NCBI RefSeq assembly: GCF_001983935.1
Contig: NZ_CP017641.1
Location: forward strand, 1,984,001-2,048,000
DNA from: Fuerstiella marisgermanici
GTDB taxonomy: Bacteria > Planctomycetota > Planctomycetia > Planctomycetales > Planctomycetaceae
Length of the DNA stretch: 64,000 nucleotides
Direction of reading: 5' to 3'
The notes below the pieces were generated by a model. That model saw only the letters and a program-made list of their open reading frames with translations, was not told the DNA's origin and made no database searches. Of this stretch, positions 33,012 to 62,718 are shown piece by piece. Position numbers and translations under genes: made by a program. The stretch's first letter is position 1, and each line of letters opens with the position of its first letter.

Positions 33012-33167
33012 GTGCGCCGCCTTGGGACGCCTGGCATGGCGCGTGTTTTATGGGGTGCGAGTCCCTTGTACGAGAATGGAGGTCTTGCGGACTGATGGTA
33101 CATCCATTGAGCTGCAGGAATCAAGTAGGAGACGAGGGCAACTGCGGGGAGGTAACGAACCGTGGGG
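33012..33167 (+). ncRNA. Group II intron 5' fragment (domain I)
   Basis: Begins with the group II 5' consensus form GTGCG and matches the 5' end of intron A at 58671-58830: CGCCTGGCATGGCG, TTTTATGGGGTGC, ACGAGAATGGAGGTCTTG and GGGGAGGTAACGAACCGTGG. The match ends abruptly at 33167, where a TIR-bounded repeat begins. No intron ORF or 3' end is present, so this is a dead remnant. Confidence 0.8.
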
Positions 33168-33318
33168 TGGCCCGACCCACTTGTTCGGTTGGGTCGCGCA
33201 GCGACAGGATGCCTGCTTGTGGGCGTCCCATCGAGCATGGAGTCCCATTCTGATTGGACGCCGGATGATGCGACATCTTGTTCCTGCGGCACCCAGCCGG
33301 CCGGCCGGGCCACCCTGC
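33164..33318. repeat. TIR-bounded ~155-bp repeat, copy 1
   Basis: Ends are GGGGTGGCCCGACC and the complement of GCAGGGTGGCCCGGCC. The internal GACCCA...TGGGTC hairpin and the run GCAGCGACAGGATGCCTGCT are shared with copy 2 at 41408-41561. It is joined directly to a group II intron 5' fragment. It looks like a MITE (inference). Confidence 0.75.
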
Positions 33319-38193: not shown

Positions 38194-38562
38194 CTGGGGA
38201 GTTTCGATGGAACGTCGTTTGAGCGAACTGCGAAGTTATCTTCGCGGCTGGGCGGGCTACTTCTGCCTGGCAATGGAGTTGAAACTGTTCGACAGACTCG
38301 ACCAGTGGATCCGTCGTCGGATACGCATGTGTTACTGGAAGCGTTGGCGACACGCTCGCACACGCAGCCGAGAACTCGTGCGTTTAGGGGTTCCCCGTCG
38401 ACAGGCGATTCGTCATGCGAAAAGTCGCAAGAGCTACTGGCACATGGCCAAGACCATCGCCAGCGGTGTGGGCTTTACGAACGCGCTGCTCGTGGAATTG
38501 GGTCTATTAAGCCTGAAACACCTCTGGAACGAACTGGCTCCACTTCGTCGAACCGCCTGATG
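38194..38562 (+). pseudogene. 5'-truncated group II intron A, RT/maturase 3' end
   Basis: Encodes the C-terminal 117 residues of the intron A reverse transcriptase (maturase-specific region, LRGWAGYFCLAMELKLFDRL, WKRWRHARTRSRELVRLGVPRRQ), and ends with the first part of domain V (GAACCGCCTGATG). It aligns with 60236-60604 at a constant offset of 2042. Nine mismatches fall in the first ~150 bases and none after. Domain V is then interrupted by intron B. All upstream intron sequence is missing. Confidence 0.88.
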
Positions 38563-38683
38563 GGCGAGTAGGATGGCGTCTTTCGGGTTTAGGATGCGGT
38601 TTGTGTTCCCTGTTGGCCACCCGTTTCCTCTGGTGGTGTCACAATATTTTATCCGTGTCCGATTGTACGCTCAACCCCTCTCA

Positions 38684-38716
38684 GAACCGGACGTGCGCCG
38701 TTAACGCATCCGGCTC
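38684..38716 (-). ncRNA. Group II intron B domain V, copy 1
   Basis: Read on the minus strand: GAGCCGGATGCG, then a TTAACG loop segment, then CGCACGTCCGGTTC. The AGC triad and the two-part stem fit a group II domain V. Confidence 0.85.
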
Positions 38717-38741
38717 CCGACCATCACTTGTCACCCGGTCA

Positions 38742-40427
38742 TCACTTTGGCTGTATCGCAATCAGGTCAGTCAGCTTCGAAGGAGATGCCAGGGGAAAGC
38801 GAGCTATGTACGCATCGAACTGAGGCCAGGTCTTTGACTTCCTCTGCGAACGACGATTGAGCCAGCGGAAGGCCAGCTGCTTTGCTGCCTGGCGGAATTT
38901 CATCAGTTGGGACCAATTGTCATTGATTCCATAGTACTGATAATGGCCACGCAGCTTCGCATTCAACTTCGCCCAGACTTCGGACAAAGGTGTCGTCAGA
39001 TTCCGTCGGAACCAATGCTTCAGATCGCCTACCTTAGCTCGGTATTTCTTACTGGCTGTCTTCCGTTTCGGCTTGAACTTTCCCGCACGACTCAGGCCGC
39101 AGTAATGAGTGAAGCCGAGGAAGTCGAACGTCGCGGGAGCCCCTTCGCCAAGACGCTGGCAATCGCGTCTCGCAAAGCGGCCGAACCGCAGCAGTTTAGT
39201 CTTCTCTTCGGCCAGCTCCAGCGAGTATCGGGCCAGTCGCTTCGGTAGCACATCCTGAAAGCGTCTCGCGTCAGACTCCAGTTCGAACGCACAAATGAAG
39301 TCGTCCGCGAAGCGGACAATGTACGATTCACCTCGCATACGCGGCTGCACATCCCGGTCGAACCATTGGTCCAGGACGTAATGCAAATACACGTTCGCTA
39401 ATAACGGTGAAAGAACCGAGCCTTGCGGAACACCTTCGTCAGTGTTACGGCGACGACCTTCGATCATCACACCGGACTTCAGAAAGCGCTGGATCAGGGC
39501 CAATAGCTTCGGATCGGAAATCCGCTTTTGTAGCAGTTCGAGCAAACGTTCATGACAAACGTTATCGAAGAAGCCACGGATATCCGCGTCCGAAATCCAG
39601 CTCACTTTCCGGGTCGCGATGGTTTGACCGTGCACACTTAAAGCCTGGTGGCATGACCGTCCCGGACGGAAACCATAGGAAGTCTCACAGAAGTCGACTT
39701 CGTAGATCCGTTCCAGAATCATCACGACCGCACGTTGTACGATCTTGTCTTCCACACTGGCGATACCCAGCGGTCTGGTCTTGCCATTCCCTTTCGGAAT
39801 GTCACGACGAAGACTGGGCTGAGGCCGATACGCACCACGGTGTAATCTGGTTAACAGGTCGTGCAGGTTGTCCCGCAGATTCGACTCGTATTGATCCACC
39901 GTGACACCGTCGACTCCGGGTGCCTTGCCTCGCTTGAGCTTGCGAAACGCATACCACAGCAACTCGTAATTGAGCAGCGAAAAGAGGTTGTTAAACGCCT
40001 CTTCAGAGTACGTTTCCGCGCGTTGGGTGATGCGATCCAGTCGATCAAGCACCGGTGATCCGCCACTGAGTGCGGTCGGTGTATCGCTGGAGTCGCGTGA
40101 TGGCCTGGCGGCCTTCCCTGCACCCGCATTACCGGGCTTCAATTCACGCGATTGGTCTTCGCGCTTCAACGGTACTATGCCGCCATCCGACTTCCCAGAG
40201 TCGTCTGCACTCCTTGCCTTTTCAGCTTGTACGTGCATACTCGTTTCGTCGTGATTGGACGTCACGTCGAACAAGAACAGCTGGGATCTCACTGGTTGCT
40301 TCATTGGCATCATGTGTAGCGCGATCGTGGCCTTCGACCCCGGGTCTCCGAGCTTCGCTCGCCAAAACGCGAAACTCAGTGTTGCCTTTAGCAGGTCCGA
40401 ATGCCTGGGCAGATACCGAGAAAACAT
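38742..40427 (-). CDS. Group II intron B reverse transcriptase/maturase, copy 1
   Basis: Multifunctional intron-encoded protein that helps splicing and makes cDNA at the target. RT motifs are clear: NYELLWYAFRKLKRGKAPGVDGV, GIASVEDKIVQRAVVMILE, VPQGSVLSPLLANVYL, and the catalytic FADD (RFADDFICAFE, residue ~375). The maturase part follows (LRGHYQYYGINDN). The C-terminal end is short, and no HNH endonuclease domain was seen. The first ATG is unclear: the frame opens at 40427, and 40313 or later ATGs are plausible. Identical to the protein at 60784-62469. Confidence 0.9.
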   Translation of the reverse strand: MFSRYLPRHSDLLKATLSFAFWRAKLGDPGSKATIALHMMPMKQPVRSQLFLFDVTSNHDETSMHVQAEKARSADDSGKSDGGIVPLKREDQSRELKPGNAGAGKAARPSRDSSDTPTALSGGSPVLDRLDRITQRAETYSEEAFNNLFSLLNYELLWYAFRKLKRGKAPGVDGVTVDQYESNLRDNLHDLLTRLHRGAYRPQPSLRRDIPKGNGKTRPLGIASVEDKIVQRAVVMILERIYEVDFCETSYGFRPGRSCHQALSVHGQTIATRKVSWISDADIRGFFDNVCHERLLELLQKRISDPKLLALIQRFLKSGVMIEGRRRNTDEGVPQGSVLSPLLANVYLHYVLDQWFDRDVQPRMRGESYIVRFADDFICAFELESDARRFQDVLPKRLARYSLELAEEKTKLLRFGRFARRDCQRLGEGAPATFDFLGFTHYCGLSRAGKFKPKRKTASKKYRAKVGDLKHWFRRNLTTPLSEVWAKLNAKLRGHYQYYGINDNWSQLMKFRQAAKQLAFRWLNRRSQRKSKTWPQFDAYIARFPLASPSKLTDLIAIQPK

Positions 40428-40617
40428 GCATTTCGGGGCTCAATACCATTCACGGTTTGGGCGGCCAGCCCAGTCCATTCGTCCTCACTACCTTTCTGTG
40501 TACGCTTCAACGCAACTGTTACCAGTGACGCTGCAACACTCGATACCGGGCCTCAGGCTAAGAGTTACCCGGACGGGATTCGCACCCGCTTGTCAATAAA
40601 CCATTTCCAGTTCGCTC

Positions 40618-40676
40618 CGGACCCGCATGTCAGGTGGTGTGGGGAGGGTCACCGGAAACGGTGGCTCTTACCCGAT
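40618..40676 (+). ncRNA. Intron A 3' end (second half of domain V plus domain VI), copy 1
   Basis: CGGACCCGCATGTCAGG completes the domain V that starts before intron B. GGGTCACCG-GAAA-CGGTGGCTC is the domain VI hairpin with a bulged A candidate, and the sequence ends TACCCGAT at 40676. Same as 62660-62718. Confidence 0.85.
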
Positions 40677-41165: not shown

Positions 41166-41407
41166 TGAGCAGTTTGCATTAGAGGCGAACAATCTAGTTA
41201 TTGGGTTAGCTCACCGGGATATCGTTCATATTGACGGGATTATTCCGGTGACGGTTGAATTTTATTCAGGTGGAGAGTTTGCTGCAAGGGTTCGCCTGCC
41301 TTCCCTGGCATAAGATGCAGAATGCCATTTAAGGGGCCGATGTCACATCGCGTGCGGGGGGTGACAAGTGAGTTCAGCATTCTTCCGGCAAATATTAGGC
41401 GATGCGT

Positions 41408-41561
41408 GGGGTGGCCCGACCGATTTGTTCGGTTGGGTCGCGCAGCGACAGGATGCCTGCTTGTCGGCTTCCGTCGAACATGGAGTTCCATACTGATTGG
41501 ACGCCGGATGATGAGACATCTTGTGCCTGCGGCACCCAGCCGATCGGCCGGGCCACCCTGC
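41408..41561. repeat. TIR-bounded ~155-bp repeat, copy 2
   Basis: Same family as 33164-33318: the ends GGGGTGGCCCGACC and CGGGCCACCCTGC, the internal GTTGGGTCGCGCAGCGACAG and TTGGACGCCGGATGATG segments match. It lies immediately upstream of an orphan group II domain V. Confidence 0.75.
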
Positions 41562-41564
41562 GAT

Positions 41565-41637
41565 GAACCGCCTGGTGCCGACCCGCATGCCAAGTGGTGT
41601 GGGAGGGGCCCGGTCAAAGCCGGCCCCCGATCCCGAT
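41565..41637 (+). ncRNA. Orphan group II intron domain V-VI
   Basis: GAACCGCCTGGTGC then CGACCCGCATGCCAAG then GTGGTGTGGG match the intact domain V of intron A with few changes. A domain VI hairpin (GGGGCCCGG-TCAA-CCGGCCCCC) and the end TCCCGAT follow, with a T-run after it. No ORF or 5' end is present. It shows the uninterrupted form of the sequence that intron B splits elsewhere. Confidence 0.82.
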
Positions 41638-41651
41638 TTTTGTTGGCCAGC

Positions 41652-57383: not shown

Positions 57384-58319
57384 TTAATCTGTCGTCGGTT
57401 TCCTGCCGTCCGAGCGGACGCTCACATCCGCTGCGCCCGGTGCCGCCCATCCCGGAAGTTGTCTCACCGGCAGCCAGTCCGCCGGACTGGGCACGCTGTT
57501 CAGATGCAGGCGTCGCACATGCAGATACTTCATCGTCGTTGAAAAGCTTTTGTGACCCAGCAGGCGACTGATCGCCAGCAGATCGACTCCCGCTTCCAGC
57601 AGGTGAGTCGCAAAGCTGTGGCGCATCGTGTGTGGCGTGATGTTGCGTTCGATGCCCGCTCGTGCTGTCGAAGCTTTGATCACTTTTTGAATGGTGGTCG
57701 GAGCCAGAGGAACATCCCTGGTTCGTCCGGGAAACAGATATGTCACCGGACGATACTGCTTCCAGTACTCGCGAAGTTCTTTCAGCAGTCTCGGCGACAA
57801 CGGCACGCGTCGTTCCTTCGCTCCTTTGCCGCAGGTCACTCGCAGCTGCATTCGCTGGCTGTCGATGTCGGCAATCTTCAGGTGAGCCGCCTCGTTCAGC
57901 CGCAGCCCGGCCGAATAGAGAGTCAGTAGAAAAGTCCGATGTTTGATATTCGTCGTACATTCGATCAGCCGAGAAACTTCTTCCCCGCTGAGAACTTCCG
58001 GAAGGGTCTTCGGGCGCTTGTCGAACGGCACCATCTTCACCACCCACTCGCGAGGGTACGTGTGGCGGTACAGAAAACGTAGGCCACACACGGCCTGATT
58101 GAAGGAGCTCCAGCCAACTTTCCTCACTTCGATGAGGTGCAGTTGAAACGATCGCACGTCTTCGGCGGACGCCTGTTCCGGTGACTTGCCGAGAAACTCG
58201 GCGAAGCGGCCGACATGATACGTGTAGGCGTCAATGGTCGCCTGAGCAAAGTTGCGCAGCTTCATATCATCGGCCATGCGTTTCGTGAGCACAGTTGTGC
58301 GAGATTGCCAGGGCGTCAT
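57384..58319 (-). CDS. Tyrosine recombinase/integrase, IS91-associated
   Basis: Phage-integrase family. The N-terminal SAM-like DNA-binding domain (residues ~10-95) precedes the catalytic core with Arg in LYSAGLRLNEA, His-x-x-Arg in HTMRHSFATHLLEAG, the second His in LLGHKSFSTT, and the Tyr nucleophile in MKYLHV. ATG 58319 is chosen; the frame is open to 58460. Some IS91-type elements carry such a recombinase directly upstream of the transposase (family knowledge). The gene appears intact although its partner is broken. Confidence 0.88.
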   Translation of the reverse strand: MTPWQSRTTVLTKRMADDMKLRNFAQATIDAYTYHVGRFAEFLGKSPEQASAEDVRSFQLHLIEVRKVGWSSFNQAVCGLRFLYRHTYPREWVVKMVPFDKRPKTLPEVLSGEEVSRLIECTTNIKHRTFLLTLYSAGLRLNEAAHLKIADIDSQRMQLRVTCGKGAKERRVPLSPRLLKELREYWKQYRPVTYLFPGRTRDVPLAPTTIQKVIKASTARAGIERNITPHTMRHSFATHLLEAGVDLLAISRLLGHKSFSTTMKYLHVRRLHLNSVPSPADWLPVRQLPGWAAPGAADVSVRSDGRKPTTD

Positions 58320-58670
58320 GGTGGTCACTTTCTGAGTGAAGGAAGAGTTACCGCGTGATGGAAAATCACACGCGAGCTGTTCACACAGAATGCCACAGCA
58401 TCCAGACAACGCGACCTGTTTCGTTATGAACAATCGCTGAAGCCATGTGCGATCGCACACCCAACCTGGAAATTCCAGGCGACCTGGAACTTCGTCACGA
58501 CCTGGCCAGCGCGGAAGACCTGGAAATCCGTCAAAAGAGGACCATCAACAAGTCAGCACAGTCAACATGCTCAAGACGATCAGCACACGAAGCGGTTAAG
58601 TTCAACGTCACCGTTCACCGGGCCGCGGCGAACGACATTGATTTCAAAAACCCGCGCGACCCGCGGCTCC
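58320..58670. other. Gap with short palindromes and the intron A 5' exon
   Basis: TGTGCGATCGCACA (58446-58459) is a 14-base perfect palindrome. CCTGGAAATTCCAGG (58465-58479) is another, within a run of GACCTGGAA-like repeats. CCGCG-cgacC-CGCGG (58652-58665) is a small hairpin just before the intron A 5' end. Such a hairpin is the usual group IIC insertion context. Confidence 0.55.
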
Positions 58671-59174
58671 GTGTGCAACGGTTTGGTACGCCTGGCATGG
58701 CGTGTGTTTTATGGGGTGCAAGTCCCCTGTACGAGAATGGAGGTCTTGTGGATTAATGGTACATCCATTGAGCTGCTTGAATCAAGTACGAGACGAGGGC
58801 AACTGCGGGGAGGTAACGAACCGTGGGGAGGAAGCCTGCGAATGCGCCGTTAAGCTGACACTCAACAGTCGTCGTCAGTCGCATCTTCGTCAAAGCTGCG
58901 AGGTTACGAACAGAAATCGGATACAAGGCCGGTGCGGACAGGTGAGTGAGCCAATCATCACGAAACCGTCTCCGTTCATCCGCATTGGTAAATCCGGAGC
59001 TTGTGCAGCGAAAGTCACACGCCTTATCCAGGGAGATCCGTCGTTCGTATCTGTTAGAAGAGCTTGCTCAAAGGCAGAGCGATTCGTGGTCAACACGTTT
59101 CGTGATCGACGGAAGTCAGCAGAGGTCGTAGTACTGTTTCGTCACACACCACTGACGACAGGAAGGACCGAACG

Positions 59175-60602
59175 ATGAATTCCAGGGAGGAGTCTTCGAC
59201 CAACTCGACACGAGGTGGGTGGTCTGCTCGGCAGACAAATCCAGTTCCCCGAACGGGGATGACCGCGTCGGCGTCGGACAAGCAGCCAGCCCTGAACGAC
59301 CGTGGTTCCACGGTCGAACGTTTGTTTCCAGAGATGATGATGGAAGCCGTCGTTGATGAATCCAACATGGAACGCGCCTGGCAGAAAGTCCGGTCGAACC
59401 GCGGAGCCCCTGGCCCCGACGGCATCACGCTGGATGAATTTCTGACATGGTTCCGACCACGCTGGGAACTCATCCGACGACAGCTTCTCGACGGCACGTA
59501 TCGACCTTCACCGGTGCGACGCGTGACCATCGACAAGCCGGATGGCGGCACACGGCAGCTCGGTATTCCGAACGTGCTGGACCGCGTGATTCAACAGGCC
59601 ATCCTGCAGATTCTGACGCCCGTGTTCGATCCGCACTTCAGCGATTCGAGCCACGGGTTTCGCCCCAACCGATCCGCTCACGGAGCCATGCAACAGGTTC
59701 AGCGGACGATCAAGGCAGGCGGCAAGTTCGTGGTGGATATGGACCTTTCAAAATTCTTTGATCGAGTCAACCACGACGTGCTGATGAACCGAATCGCTCT
59801 TCGCGTTTCGGATTCACTGCTGCTGAAACTGATCGGCCGTTACCTGCGAGCGGGCGTGATCGTGGACGGCGAACTGCAACCGAGTACCGAAGGAACGCCA
59901 CAAGGTGGCCCGCTGTCTCCGCTACTTGCCAACATCCTGCTGGATGATCTGGACAAGGAACTGGAACAACGCGGTCTGCCGTTCGTGCGTTACGCTGACG
60001 ACTTCGTGATCTTCACGAAGTCTGAACGTGCCGCGCGTCGAGTGTTCCGATCGGTGCAGCGTTTTCTGACCGAACGTCTTCGTCTTGTTGTTAACGAAAC
60101 GAAGAGCAAAGTGGTGCCGTGGCAGGAACTTGAGTTTCTTGGGTTCTGTGTTCGCGGTCGCTACTTTCGGATCAGGCTGAGTGACAAATCGCTTCAGCGT
60201 TTCAAGCGTCGCATTCGAGAACTCACCGGTCGCAGCTGGGGAGTTTCGATGGAACGTCGCTTGAGTGAACTGCGAAGTTATCTTCGCGGCTGGGCGGGTT
60301 ACTTCTGCCTGGCGATGGAGTTGAAACTGTTCGATAGGCTCGACCAGTGGATCCGTCGTCGGATACGCATGTGCTTCTGGAAGCGGTGGCGACACGCTCG
60401 CACACGCAGCCGAGAACTCGTGCGTTTAGGGGTTCCCCGTCGACAGGCGATTCGTCATGCGAAAAGTCGCAAGAGCTACTGGCACATGGCCAAGACCATC
60501 GCCAGCGGTGTGGGCTTTACGAACGCGCTGCTCGTGGAATTGGGTCTATTAAGCCTGAAACACCTCTGGAACGAACTGGCTCCACTTCGTCGAACCGCCT
60601 GA
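59175..60602 (+). CDS. Group II intron A reverse transcriptase/maturase
   Basis: 475 residues. RT motifs: VRSNRGAPGPDGITLDEF, GIPNVLDRVIQQAILQIL, TPQGGPLSPLLANILL, and the catalytic YADD (VRYADDFVIF, residue ~273). The maturase region follows (LRGWAGYFCLAMELKLFDRL, RRRIRMCFWKRWRHA). There is no C-terminal endonuclease domain, as in group IIC. AGGA precedes the ATG. The stop codon TGA lies inside the domain V sequence GAACCGCCTGATG. Confidence 0.93.
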   Translation: MNSREESSTNSTRGGWSARQTNPVPRTGMTASASDKQPALNDRGSTVERLFPEMMMEAVVDESNMERAWQKVRSNRGAPGPDGITLDEFLTWFRPRWELIRRQLLDGTYRPSPVRRVTIDKPDGGTRQLGIPNVLDRVIQQAILQILTPVFDPHFSDSSHGFRPNRSAHGAMQQVQRTIKAGGKFVVDMDLSKFFDRVNHDVLMNRIALRVSDSLLLKLIGRYLRAGVIVDGELQPSTEGTPQGGPLSPLLANILLDDLDKELEQRGLPFVRYADDFVIFTKSERAARRVFRSVQRFLTERLRLVVNETKSKVVPWQELEFLGFCVRGRYFRIRLSDKSLQRFKRRIRELTGRSWGVSMERRLSELRSYLRGWAGYFCLAMELKLFDRLDQWIRRRIRMCFWKRWRHARTRSRELVRLGVPRRQAIRHAKSRKSYWHMAKTIASGVGFTNALLVELGLLSLKHLWNELAPLRRTA

Positions 60603-60725
60603 TGGGCGAGTAGGATGGCGTCTTTCGGGTTTAGGATGCGGTTTGTGTTCCCTGTTGGCCACCCGTTTCCTCTGGTGGTGTCACAATATTTTATCCGTGT
60701 CCGATTGTACGCTCAACCCCTCTCA

Positions 60726-60758
60726 GAACCGGACGTGCGCCGTTAACGCATCCGGCTC
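60726..60758 (-). ncRNA. Group II intron B domain V, copy 2
   Basis: Minus strand reads GAGCCGGATGCG ... CGCACGTCCGGTTC with the AGC triad and a short loop. It lies 26 bases after the RT stop codon, leaving almost no domain IV tail. Confidence 0.85.
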
Positions 60759-60783
60759 CCGACCATCACTTGTCACCCGGTCA

Positions 60784-62469
60784 TCACTTTGGCTGTATCG
60801 CAATCAGGTCAGTCAGCTTCGAAGGAGATGCCAGGGGAAAGCGAGCTATGTACGCATCGAACTGAGGCCAGGTCTTTGACTTCCTCTGCGAACGACGATT
60901 GAGCCAGCGGAAGGCCAGCTGCTTTGCTGCCTGGCGGAATTTCATCAGTTGGGACCAATTGTCATTGATTCCATAGTACTGATAATGGCCACGCAGCTTC
61001 GCATTCAACTTCGCCCAGACTTCGGACAAAGGTGTCGTCAGATTCCGTCGGAACCAATGCTTCAGATCGCCTACCTTAGCTCGGTATTTCTTACTGGCTG
61101 TCTTCCGTTTCGGCTTGAACTTTCCCGCACGACTCAGGCCGCAGTAATGAGTGAAGCCGAGGAAGTCGAACGTCGCGGGAGCCCCTTCGCCAAGACGCTG
61201 GCAATCGCGTCTCGCAAAGCGGCCGAACCGCAGCAGTTTAGTCTTCTCTTCGGCCAGCTCCAGCGAGTATCGGGCCAGTCGCTTCGGTAGCACATCCTGA
61301 AAGCGTCTCGCGTCAGACTCCAGTTCGAACGCACAAATGAAGTCGTCCGCGAAGCGGACAATGTACGATTCACCTCGCATACGCGGCTGCACATCCCGGT
61401 CGAACCATTGGTCCAGGACGTAATGCAAATACACGTTCGCTAATAACGGTGAAAGAACCGAGCCTTGCGGAACACCTTCGTCAGTGTTACGGCGACGACC
61501 TTCGATCATCACACCGGACTTCAGAAAGCGCTGGATCAGGGCCAATAGCTTCGGATCGGAAATCCGCTTTTGTAGCAGTTCGAGCAAACGTTCATGACAA
61601 ACGTTATCGAAGAAGCCACGGATATCCGCGTCCGAAATCCAGCTCACTTTCCGGGTCGCGATGGTTTGACCGTGCACACTTAAAGCCTGGTGGCATGACC
61701 GTCCCGGACGGAAACCATAGGAAGTCTCACAGAAGTCGACTTCGTAGATCCGTTCCAGAATCATCACGACCGCACGTTGTACGATCTTGTCTTCCACACT
61801 GGCGATACCCAGCGGTCTGGTCTTGCCATTCCCTTTCGGAATGTCACGACGAAGACTGGGCTGAGGCCGATACGCACCACGGTGTAATCTGGTTAACAGG
61901 TCGTGCAGGTTGTCCCGCAGATTCGACTCGTATTGATCCACCGTGACACCGTCGACTCCGGGTGCCTTGCCTCGCTTGAGCTTGCGAAACGCATACCACA
62001 GCAACTCGTAATTGAGCAGCGAAAAGAGGTTGTTAAACGCCTCTTCAGAGTACGTTTCCGCGCGTTGGGTGATGCGATCCAGTCGATCAAGCACCGGTGA
62101 TCCGCCACTGAGTGCGGTCGGTGTATCGCTGGAGTCGCGTGATGGCCTGGCGGCCTTCCCTGCACCCGCATTACCGGGCTTCAATTCACGCGATTGGTCT
62201 TCGCGCTTCAACGGTACTATGCCGCCATCCGACTTCCCAGAGTCGTCTGCACTCCTTGCCTTTTCAGCTTGTACGTGCATACTCGTTTCGTCGTGATTGG
62301 ACGTCACGTCGAACAAGAACAGCTGGGATCTCACTGGTTGCTTCATTGGCATCATGTGTAGCGCGATCGTGGCCTTCGACCCCGGGTCTCCGAGCTTCGC
62401 TCGCCAAAACGCGAAACTCAGTGTTGCCTTTAGCAGGTCCGAATGCCTGGGCAGATACCGAGAAAACAT
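60784..62469 (-). CDS. Group II intron B reverse transcriptase/maturase, copy 2
   Basis: Identical protein to the one at 38742-40427. It has RT motifs VPQGSVLSPLLANVYL and RFADDFICAFE, and a maturase domain (KLRGHYQYYGINDN). The start codon is uncertain, because the frame opens within 190 bases of the inferred intron 5' end. The 561-residue reading assumes the earliest ATG. The N-terminal ~100 residues look poorly conserved (KSDGGIVPLKREDQSR), so a later start is plausible. Confidence 0.9.
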   Translation of the reverse strand: MFSRYLPRHSDLLKATLSFAFWRAKLGDPGSKATIALHMMPMKQPVRSQLFLFDVTSNHDETSMHVQAEKARSADDSGKSDGGIVPLKREDQSRELKPGNAGAGKAARPSRDSSDTPTALSGGSPVLDRLDRITQRAETYSEEAFNNLFSLLNYELLWYAFRKLKRGKAPGVDGVTVDQYESNLRDNLHDLLTRLHRGAYRPQPSLRRDIPKGNGKTRPLGIASVEDKIVQRAVVMILERIYEVDFCETSYGFRPGRSCHQALSVHGQTIATRKVSWISDADIRGFFDNVCHERLLELLQKRISDPKLLALIQRFLKSGVMIEGRRRNTDEGVPQGSVLSPLLANVYLHYVLDQWFDRDVQPRMRGESYIVRFADDFICAFELESDARRFQDVLPKRLARYSLELAEEKTKLLRFGRFARRDCQRLGEGAPATFDFLGFTHYCGLSRAGKFKPKRKTASKKYRAKVGDLKHWFRRNLTTPLSEVWAKLNAKLRGHYQYYGINDNWSQLMKFRQAAKQLAFRWLNRRSQRKSKTWPQFDAYIARFPLASPSKLTDLIAIQPK

Positions 62470-62659
62470 GCATTTCGGGGCTCAATACCATTCACGGTTT
62501 GGGCGGCCAGCCCAGTCCATTCGTCCTCACTACCTTTCTGTGTACGCTTCAACGCAACTGTTACCAGTGACGCTGCAACACTCGATACCGGGCCTCAGGC
62601 TAAGAGTTACCCGGACGGGATTCGCACCCGCTTGTCAATAAACCATTTCCAGTTCGCTC

Positions 62660-62718
62660 CGGACCCGCATGTCAGGTGGTGTGGGGAGGGTCACCGGAAA
62701 CGGTGGCTCTTACCCGAT
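62660..62718 (+). ncRNA. Intron A 3' end: domain V second half and domain VI, copy 2
   Basis: CGGACCCGCATGTCAGG continues the domain V begun at 60592. The GTGGTGTGGGGAGGG segment and the CACCG-GAAA-CGGTG hairpin lead to the TACCCGAT end. It is the same sequence as 40618-40676. Confidence 0.85.

Follow-up and report, generated by a model that had tools for sequence, protein, structure and literature searches.

Two group II introns in opposite orientation

The window analysed here, a stretch of 64,000 nt from Fuerstiella marisgermanici (NZ_CP017641.1, positions 1,984,001–2,048,000, in a genome forming a single contig of 8.92 Mb), holds between 58.7 and 62.7 kb two group II introns, one inside the other and on the opposite strand. 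This had been proposed in an earlier note on the DNA and is borne out by Rfam and hidden Markov model matches on each strand. The outer, plus-strand intron A (58686–62718; coordinates are window positions unless marked 'genome') is interrupted at exactly 60604/62660, within its catalytic domain V (DV), by the antisense intron B, and the same insertion recurs elsewhere in the genome. B has a domain I, a DV–DVI region and an intron-encoded reverse transcriptase (RT)/maturase, as expected of a group II intron; its ends, orientation, RT gene and DV are as proposed (Table 1).

Intron A belongs to group IIC, its RT scoring 452.9 bits against the GsI-IIC RT, 374.4 against 7uim (another group II RT/maturase) and 161.7 against LtrA, the relatives of solved structure compared. 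Its RT open reading frame (ORF) is intact, with the stop codon inside DV, 2 nt ahead of B. Comparison of nine copies and fragments places the conserved 5′ end of A, GTACGCC, at 58686; the start first suggested, 58671, is not a conserved position and was misplaced by 15 nt. Both 58686 and the 3′ end at 62718, which needed no revision, agree with the head-to-tail junction CCCGAT/GTACGCC of related IIC introns in genome G219. There, on contig C20 (L161, L176, L180), IIC introns apparently stand in head-to-tail tandem, with intact DVs at 30, 2059 and 4088, a spacing of exactly 2029 nt; one junction was read, and is the one given above.

The ends of B are set by two B-free paralogues of the A family (genome 841751/841752 and 7141592/7141593), which join at exactly the equivalents of 60604 and 62660, so that B comprises 60605–62659 to the base and the proposed split of DV is exact. 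The two halves (60592–60604 and 62660–62685), when joined, fold into a DV hairpin of −19.9 kcal/mol, similar but not identical to the orphan DV at 41565 with which the restored domain had been equated. The 32-nt joined sequence is also present, uninterrupted, at six places in G219 and one in G272, genomes of the same class. With regard to the protein of B, no endonuclease domain appeared among the Pfam matches of its RT, and the ORF probably begins further downstream than listed, because the listed ATG overlaps exon-binding sequence 2 (EBS2) in domain I. Solved-structure scores fail to separate the intron classes for this RT, which is of another group II type than that of A.

Table 1. Parts of the nested introns, pairing elements of B (EBS, exon-binding; IBS, intron-binding sequence) and other copies
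Feature	Position	Strand	Basis or remark
Intron A 5′ part: domains I–IV, RT gene, 5′ half of DV	58686..60604	+	Rfam D1D4-3 and D1D4-1 matches
Intron A RT/maturase, 475 aa, open frame	59175..60602	+	TIGR04416 413.7 bits; RVT_1, GIIM
5′ half of intron A DV	60592..60604	+	paralogue comparison, fold
Intron B, 2055 nt, GAGCG start, CTCGCC end	60605..62659	-	exact ends from empty paralogues
Intron B domains V–VI	60605..60760	-	RF00029, 42.6 bits
Intron B RT/maturase ORF, 561 aa as listed	60784..62469	-	TIGR04416 359.1 bits; RVT_1, GIIM
Intron B domain I region	62370..62624	-	Rfam group-II-D1D4-6 (RF02005), 138.1 bits
Intron B EBS1 CGGACC	62436..62441	-	picked from alignment; register control run
Intron B EBS2 GCATGT	62466..62471	-	picked from alignment; without register control
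IBS1 for B, antisense strand of A DV loop	62660..62665	-	6/6 pairs with EBS1
IBS2 for B, antisense strand of A DV	62667..62672	-	6/6 pairs with EBS2
3′ half of A DV and domain VI to intron 3′ end (CCCGAT)	62660..62718	+	copy comparison, G219 junction
Second composite: 5′-truncated A (38194–38562), B (38563–40617, minus), A 3′ end (40618–40676)	38194..40676	+
Positions of the B copies	60605, 38563; genome 1186401, 1862495, 2171905, 4903070

Recurrence of intron B at one position of domain V

The earlier note described one nested pair; that pair is real, and belongs to a series of recurrent site-specific insertions with matching guide and target sequences, six in this genome and one in another. 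The six copies of B present here are mutually 100% identical over 2055 nt, and each of them interrupts DV in antisense orientation at one shared position. Three are found in composites (A at genome 2042686, which is that of the window, and two more near genome 1860574 and 4901147) in which A is identical over 1921 nt and B over its whole length, the outside flanks diverging right from the ends of A. Of the other copies, the one at 38563 has as its host a 5′-truncated A (97.6% over 369 nt), that at genome 1186401 a truncated A relative (91% over 183 nt), and that at genome 2171905 an ORF-less A relative with an empty sister at genome 7142889. The 3′ tails of the hosts are 93–100% identical, whereas the B copies do not differ. 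In the last two of these hosts, L037 and L039, differences approach the insertion closely, beginning 3 nt to the left and 49 nt to the right of B in L037, and 3 nt to the left and 11 nt to the right in L039, while around the copy at 38563 the sequence is the same as in the other window host throughout 218 nt to the left and 59 nt to the right. With the hosts thus distinguishable and B invariant, at least three of them were probably entered separately. A possible bias towards the leading or lagging strand could not be read, as 20 stretches of 20 kb yielded no usable GC skew.

The recurrent position coincides with a sequence complementary to the guide sequences of B. Both EBS1 and EBS2 pair with IBS1 and IBS2 of the 5′ exon, which is the antisense strand of the A DV, as is expected in site-specific homing. 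The 14-mer target GACATGCGGGTCCG is present five times in the 8.92 Mb, and all five occurrences are filled by B. In the A-like DVs lacking B that were examined, five in number (L041, L042, L042b, window 41580, L044), IBS1 is mismatched at one base each; filled and unfilled sites differ in target match by Fisher's test with p=0.002 by copy and 0.018 by distinct host. Three genomes with an attC-type B relative (CA13, G243 and G377) contain, in addition, an unoccupied DV bearing the target letters.

Relatives of intron B and their insertion sites

Genome contigs yielded 18 B-related loci, the flanks of which were read except for the short matches L089, L091, L092 and L093. The closest relative found, L076 (77%), belongs to a planctomycete metagenome-assembled genome in which it is present as a single copy, and it interrupts a IIC DV exactly where B does, likewise in antisense, with A-like RT sequence resuming on the opposite strand directly past it. 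Relatives at 53–74% occupy sites resembling integron attC sites, and their exon-binding sequences differ from those of B. Judged by resemblance, attC-like flanks are present on at least one side in 13 of the 18 loci. Flanks could be joined for 10 of 11 sites, giving an attC-like hairpin that is clear by eye, without shuffles or an attC covariance model, in about six (L079, L081, L082, L085, L087, L095) and weak in L078 and L086. Genome CA13 carries six copies of one such relative (L079–L082, L085, L086), with one TAG in each matched RT stretch. For intron A, insertion at an attC site (bottom strand, TTGT/T), as in IIC-attC introns, is a possibility, the 5′ flanks of its copies resembling attC arms by eye. 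An integron integrase match above the cut-off was found in three of the four genomes searched (that of B, with one such match, CA13 and that of L076, but not that of L077), and all 14 control genomes matched below it.

A tree of the RTs unites B and L076 with the attC-type introns in a single well-supported clade (100/99), within which the branching among B, L076 and L077 is not resolved. Although the tree does not show it, a single origin of DV targeting in B and L076 is likely, because the two have a common GAGCG end and EBS1. No further DV-inserted relative was seen in overlapping samples of 98, 397, 170 and 392 genomes (cut-offs 1e-3, 1e-110, 1e-150 and 1e-150, respectively), and the two stretches of viral contigs that matched a search pattern encode no B relative. 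More distant relatives (below about 50%, L060–L075 excepted) displayed no clear insertion site.

An alignment of 11 B-family introns, with EBS letters picked by eye, shows that EBS1 and EBS2 change along with the 5′ exon. Both B and L076 carry CGGACC (EBS1) and GCATGT (EBS2), matching DV, and the attC-type introns have GTGCAT, TTGCAT, GTTCAT or GTTCAC as EBS1, matching their own attC-like exons. Counting wobbles, EBS1 and IBS1 form six of six pairs in 10 of the 11 introns and five in L079 (of whose sister copies L080 scores 6/6, L081 and L086 5/6), and EBS2 pairing is complete for B, complete with one wobble for L076, and 4–6 of 6 among the attC types. In a control with free register all 11 introns reach 6/6 with their own exon for EBS1, the loops of B and L076 pair 3–5/6 with exons belonging to the remaining nine, and the nine non-DV loops pair 4–5/6 with the DV exon, so that the DV and attC groups are told apart.

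Origin and consequences of the nested arrangement

These observations are best explained, with considerable confidence, by site-specific retrohoming of an attC-type intron that has been retargeted to the DV of IIC introns. On this account B, apparently lacking an endonuclease domain and presumably still active, would be guided by EBS1/EBS2 RNA–DNA pairing to the antisense strand of DV in group IIC introns and would enter by reverse splicing. Other examined members of its lineage occupy integron attC-like sites, and B would have been turned from attC to DV by altered EBS1 and EBS2, an order that is the simplest given the attC-type members surrounding B and L076 and the GAGCG start common to these two.

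Several findings weigh against this explanation. The ends of B, GAGCG...CC, depart from the usual GUGYG...AY. The attC-type introns whose ends were read start with GTGCG and finish with CTACTC(G/A/T)CC, making the 3′ end of B a trait of its lineage; GAGCG was seen in B and L076 alone. In the RT, FADD replaces YADD, as it does in four relatives read (L079, L087, L095, L096). The sister sites are identified as attC by their resemblance and by folds without shuffle controls. Free register allows 3–9% of random hexamers to reach 6/6 (2.8% for EBS1 of B), and within the attC group pairing does not reliably distinguish own from other exons. The sixth B site has a full IBS1 with only 5/6 pairs at IBS2, one of them a wobble. 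Outside DV, two sites (genome 7630004 and 8228025) offer a complete IBS1 and IBS2 and are empty, so either pairing alone is insufficient or saturation is incomplete. Finally, the three composites share identical A and B, and separate insertions of B are not required for them.

This last point is the starting place for an alternative, rather unlikely on balance, by which the composite moves as a unit, A retrohoming despite its split DV (by way of a long-loop DV or help in trans) with B as passenger, so that identical composites would be copies of one nested element. It draws on the identity of the three composites, which extends over 1921 nt of A and the whole of B and gives way to different flanks at the ends of A, and on the lack, among the matches listed, of any B-free copy of that A subtype. 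A recent spread of A followed by invasion of B accounts for the identity equally well, however, and movement as a unit leaves unexplained both L076 and the occupation by B of two distinct hosts, L037 and L039, whose flanks differ 3 nt from the junction; moreover, DV pairing is predicted to be lost with any long insert at this place. That homologous recombination or gene conversion, and not retrohoming, carried B between A copies is more doubtful still. Conversion could explain the copy at 38563, given its mismatch-free flanks, but elsewhere the tracts would have to stop 3 nt to the left of B (L039, L037) and 11 nt (L039) or 49 nt (L037) to the right, and neither the EBS/IBS match nor L076 is accounted for. 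An ordinary insertion chancing upon DV is contradicted by six of six copies at one site and by the second genome, and can be set aside.

For intron A, the antisense insertion would break the DV helix and leave a dead ribozyme beside a whole RT gene. In a thermodynamic fold without tertiary contacts or protein, seven DV pairs have probabilities of 0.997–1.0 when B is absent, whereas all seven stay below 0.02 once the transcript includes antisense B. Two unrelated 2055-nt inserts bring these probabilities to 0.002–0.006, from which it follows that the loss reflects the length of the insert, ruling out an effect specific to B. The RNA of A should therefore be inactive by this model. Because B is antisense to A it cannot splice out of the sense RNA of A, as the earlier note had argued, and the arrangement is not a twintron, in which a same-orientation inner intron can splice from the outer transcript. 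The same note made A dependent on other copies; the predicted inactivity of the A RNA agrees with this, but the protein, whose stop codon precedes B, is unaffected and could act in trans.

Site-specific nesting of introns is already known, and the published accounts permit a comparison. In Thermosynechococcus elongatus, TeI3 (F3) is nested in TeI4 (F1): diverged outer introns contain, at a single conserved site, inner introns that are identical, interpreted there as recent independent insertions. The site is in domain IV, where the outer RT ORF has two start codons and the inner intron falls between them, and the outer and inner introns of one pair are each reported to be splicable and mobilisable (PMC2882425). 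The repeated presence of identical inner introns at one site of diverged hosts is common to both systems, whereas here the site is in DV, the orientation is antisense so that splicing cannot restore the outer intron, and B has its own RT and a host of another class. PMC8919778 also mentions nesting, both in T. elongatus and in a Wolbachia. In the Trichodesmium twintron Tr.e.I7/I8 the inner intron occupies domain I and splicing removes one intron after the other (PMC4649490), unlike B, antisense and in DV; in both the T. elongatus and Trichodesmium nestings splicing can still rescue the outer intron, which is not so for A. Introns that home repeatedly and site-specifically into other group II introns are reviewed for Methanosarcina acetivorans (PMC4424553), where the excerpt gives neither a DV target nor antisense orientation, details that the original paper may contain. 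Both IIC and IIB introns occur at attC, the IIB intron UHB.I2 immediately after an attC site (PMC7923331). Intron A resembles such IIC-attC introns and the B relatives, like UHB.I2, are at attC-like sites, whereas B and L076 are in an intron DV instead. No report of antisense or DV-targeted nesting was recognised in the openly licensed literature searched or in the passages cited here. What distinguishes the present case is that the target belongs to the strongly conserved catalytic core of a ribozyme, in an orientation that excludes rescue by splicing.

A strict DV pattern searched in 397 genomes of the class found 26 intact DVs in 15 genomes; the loop base is T, which disrupts the IBS1 of B, in both of those in the B-carrying genome (one at genome 841740–841771), and A in 23 of 24 elsewhere. 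The contrast (p=0.009 by copy; p=0.13, not significant, by genome) makes escape through the loop base suggestive, not established. A tentative extension, for now rather speculative, would see in B a specialised predator of a competitor, an attC-sharing lineage having changed its guides to strike the catalytic domain of the rival IIC intron, with hosts staying intact only when their DV loop base is altered. If true, this would amount to a guide-versus-target arms race of two ribozymes within one chromosome. Filled sites, mismatched empty sites and attC-type sisters form a natural set by which retargeting and possible escape become directly testable, and which suggests a mutual limitation of group II introns through sequence-guided inactivation.

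Further intron pieces and mobile elements accompany the locus. A tyrosine recombinase ORF (57384–58460, minus strand) adjoins an ORF that is transposase-like by eye; measured from stop to stop it spans 386 aa, and open frames just as long are found again at genome 1867412 and 3461509. Related frames of 358 aa exist elsewhere, one of them, at genome 4906378, alongside a composite. Pieces of IIC introns lie at 33012–33318 and 41400–41642 of the window, with 33156–33318 and 41400–41561 being 91–92% alike and the latter reaching as far as the orphan DV (41565). Partial A-family introns form clusters at genome 841520–843096, 7141410–7142957 and 8392777–8393989, all on the plus strand though far apart, and a more distant DV at genome 2353666 is on the minus strand.

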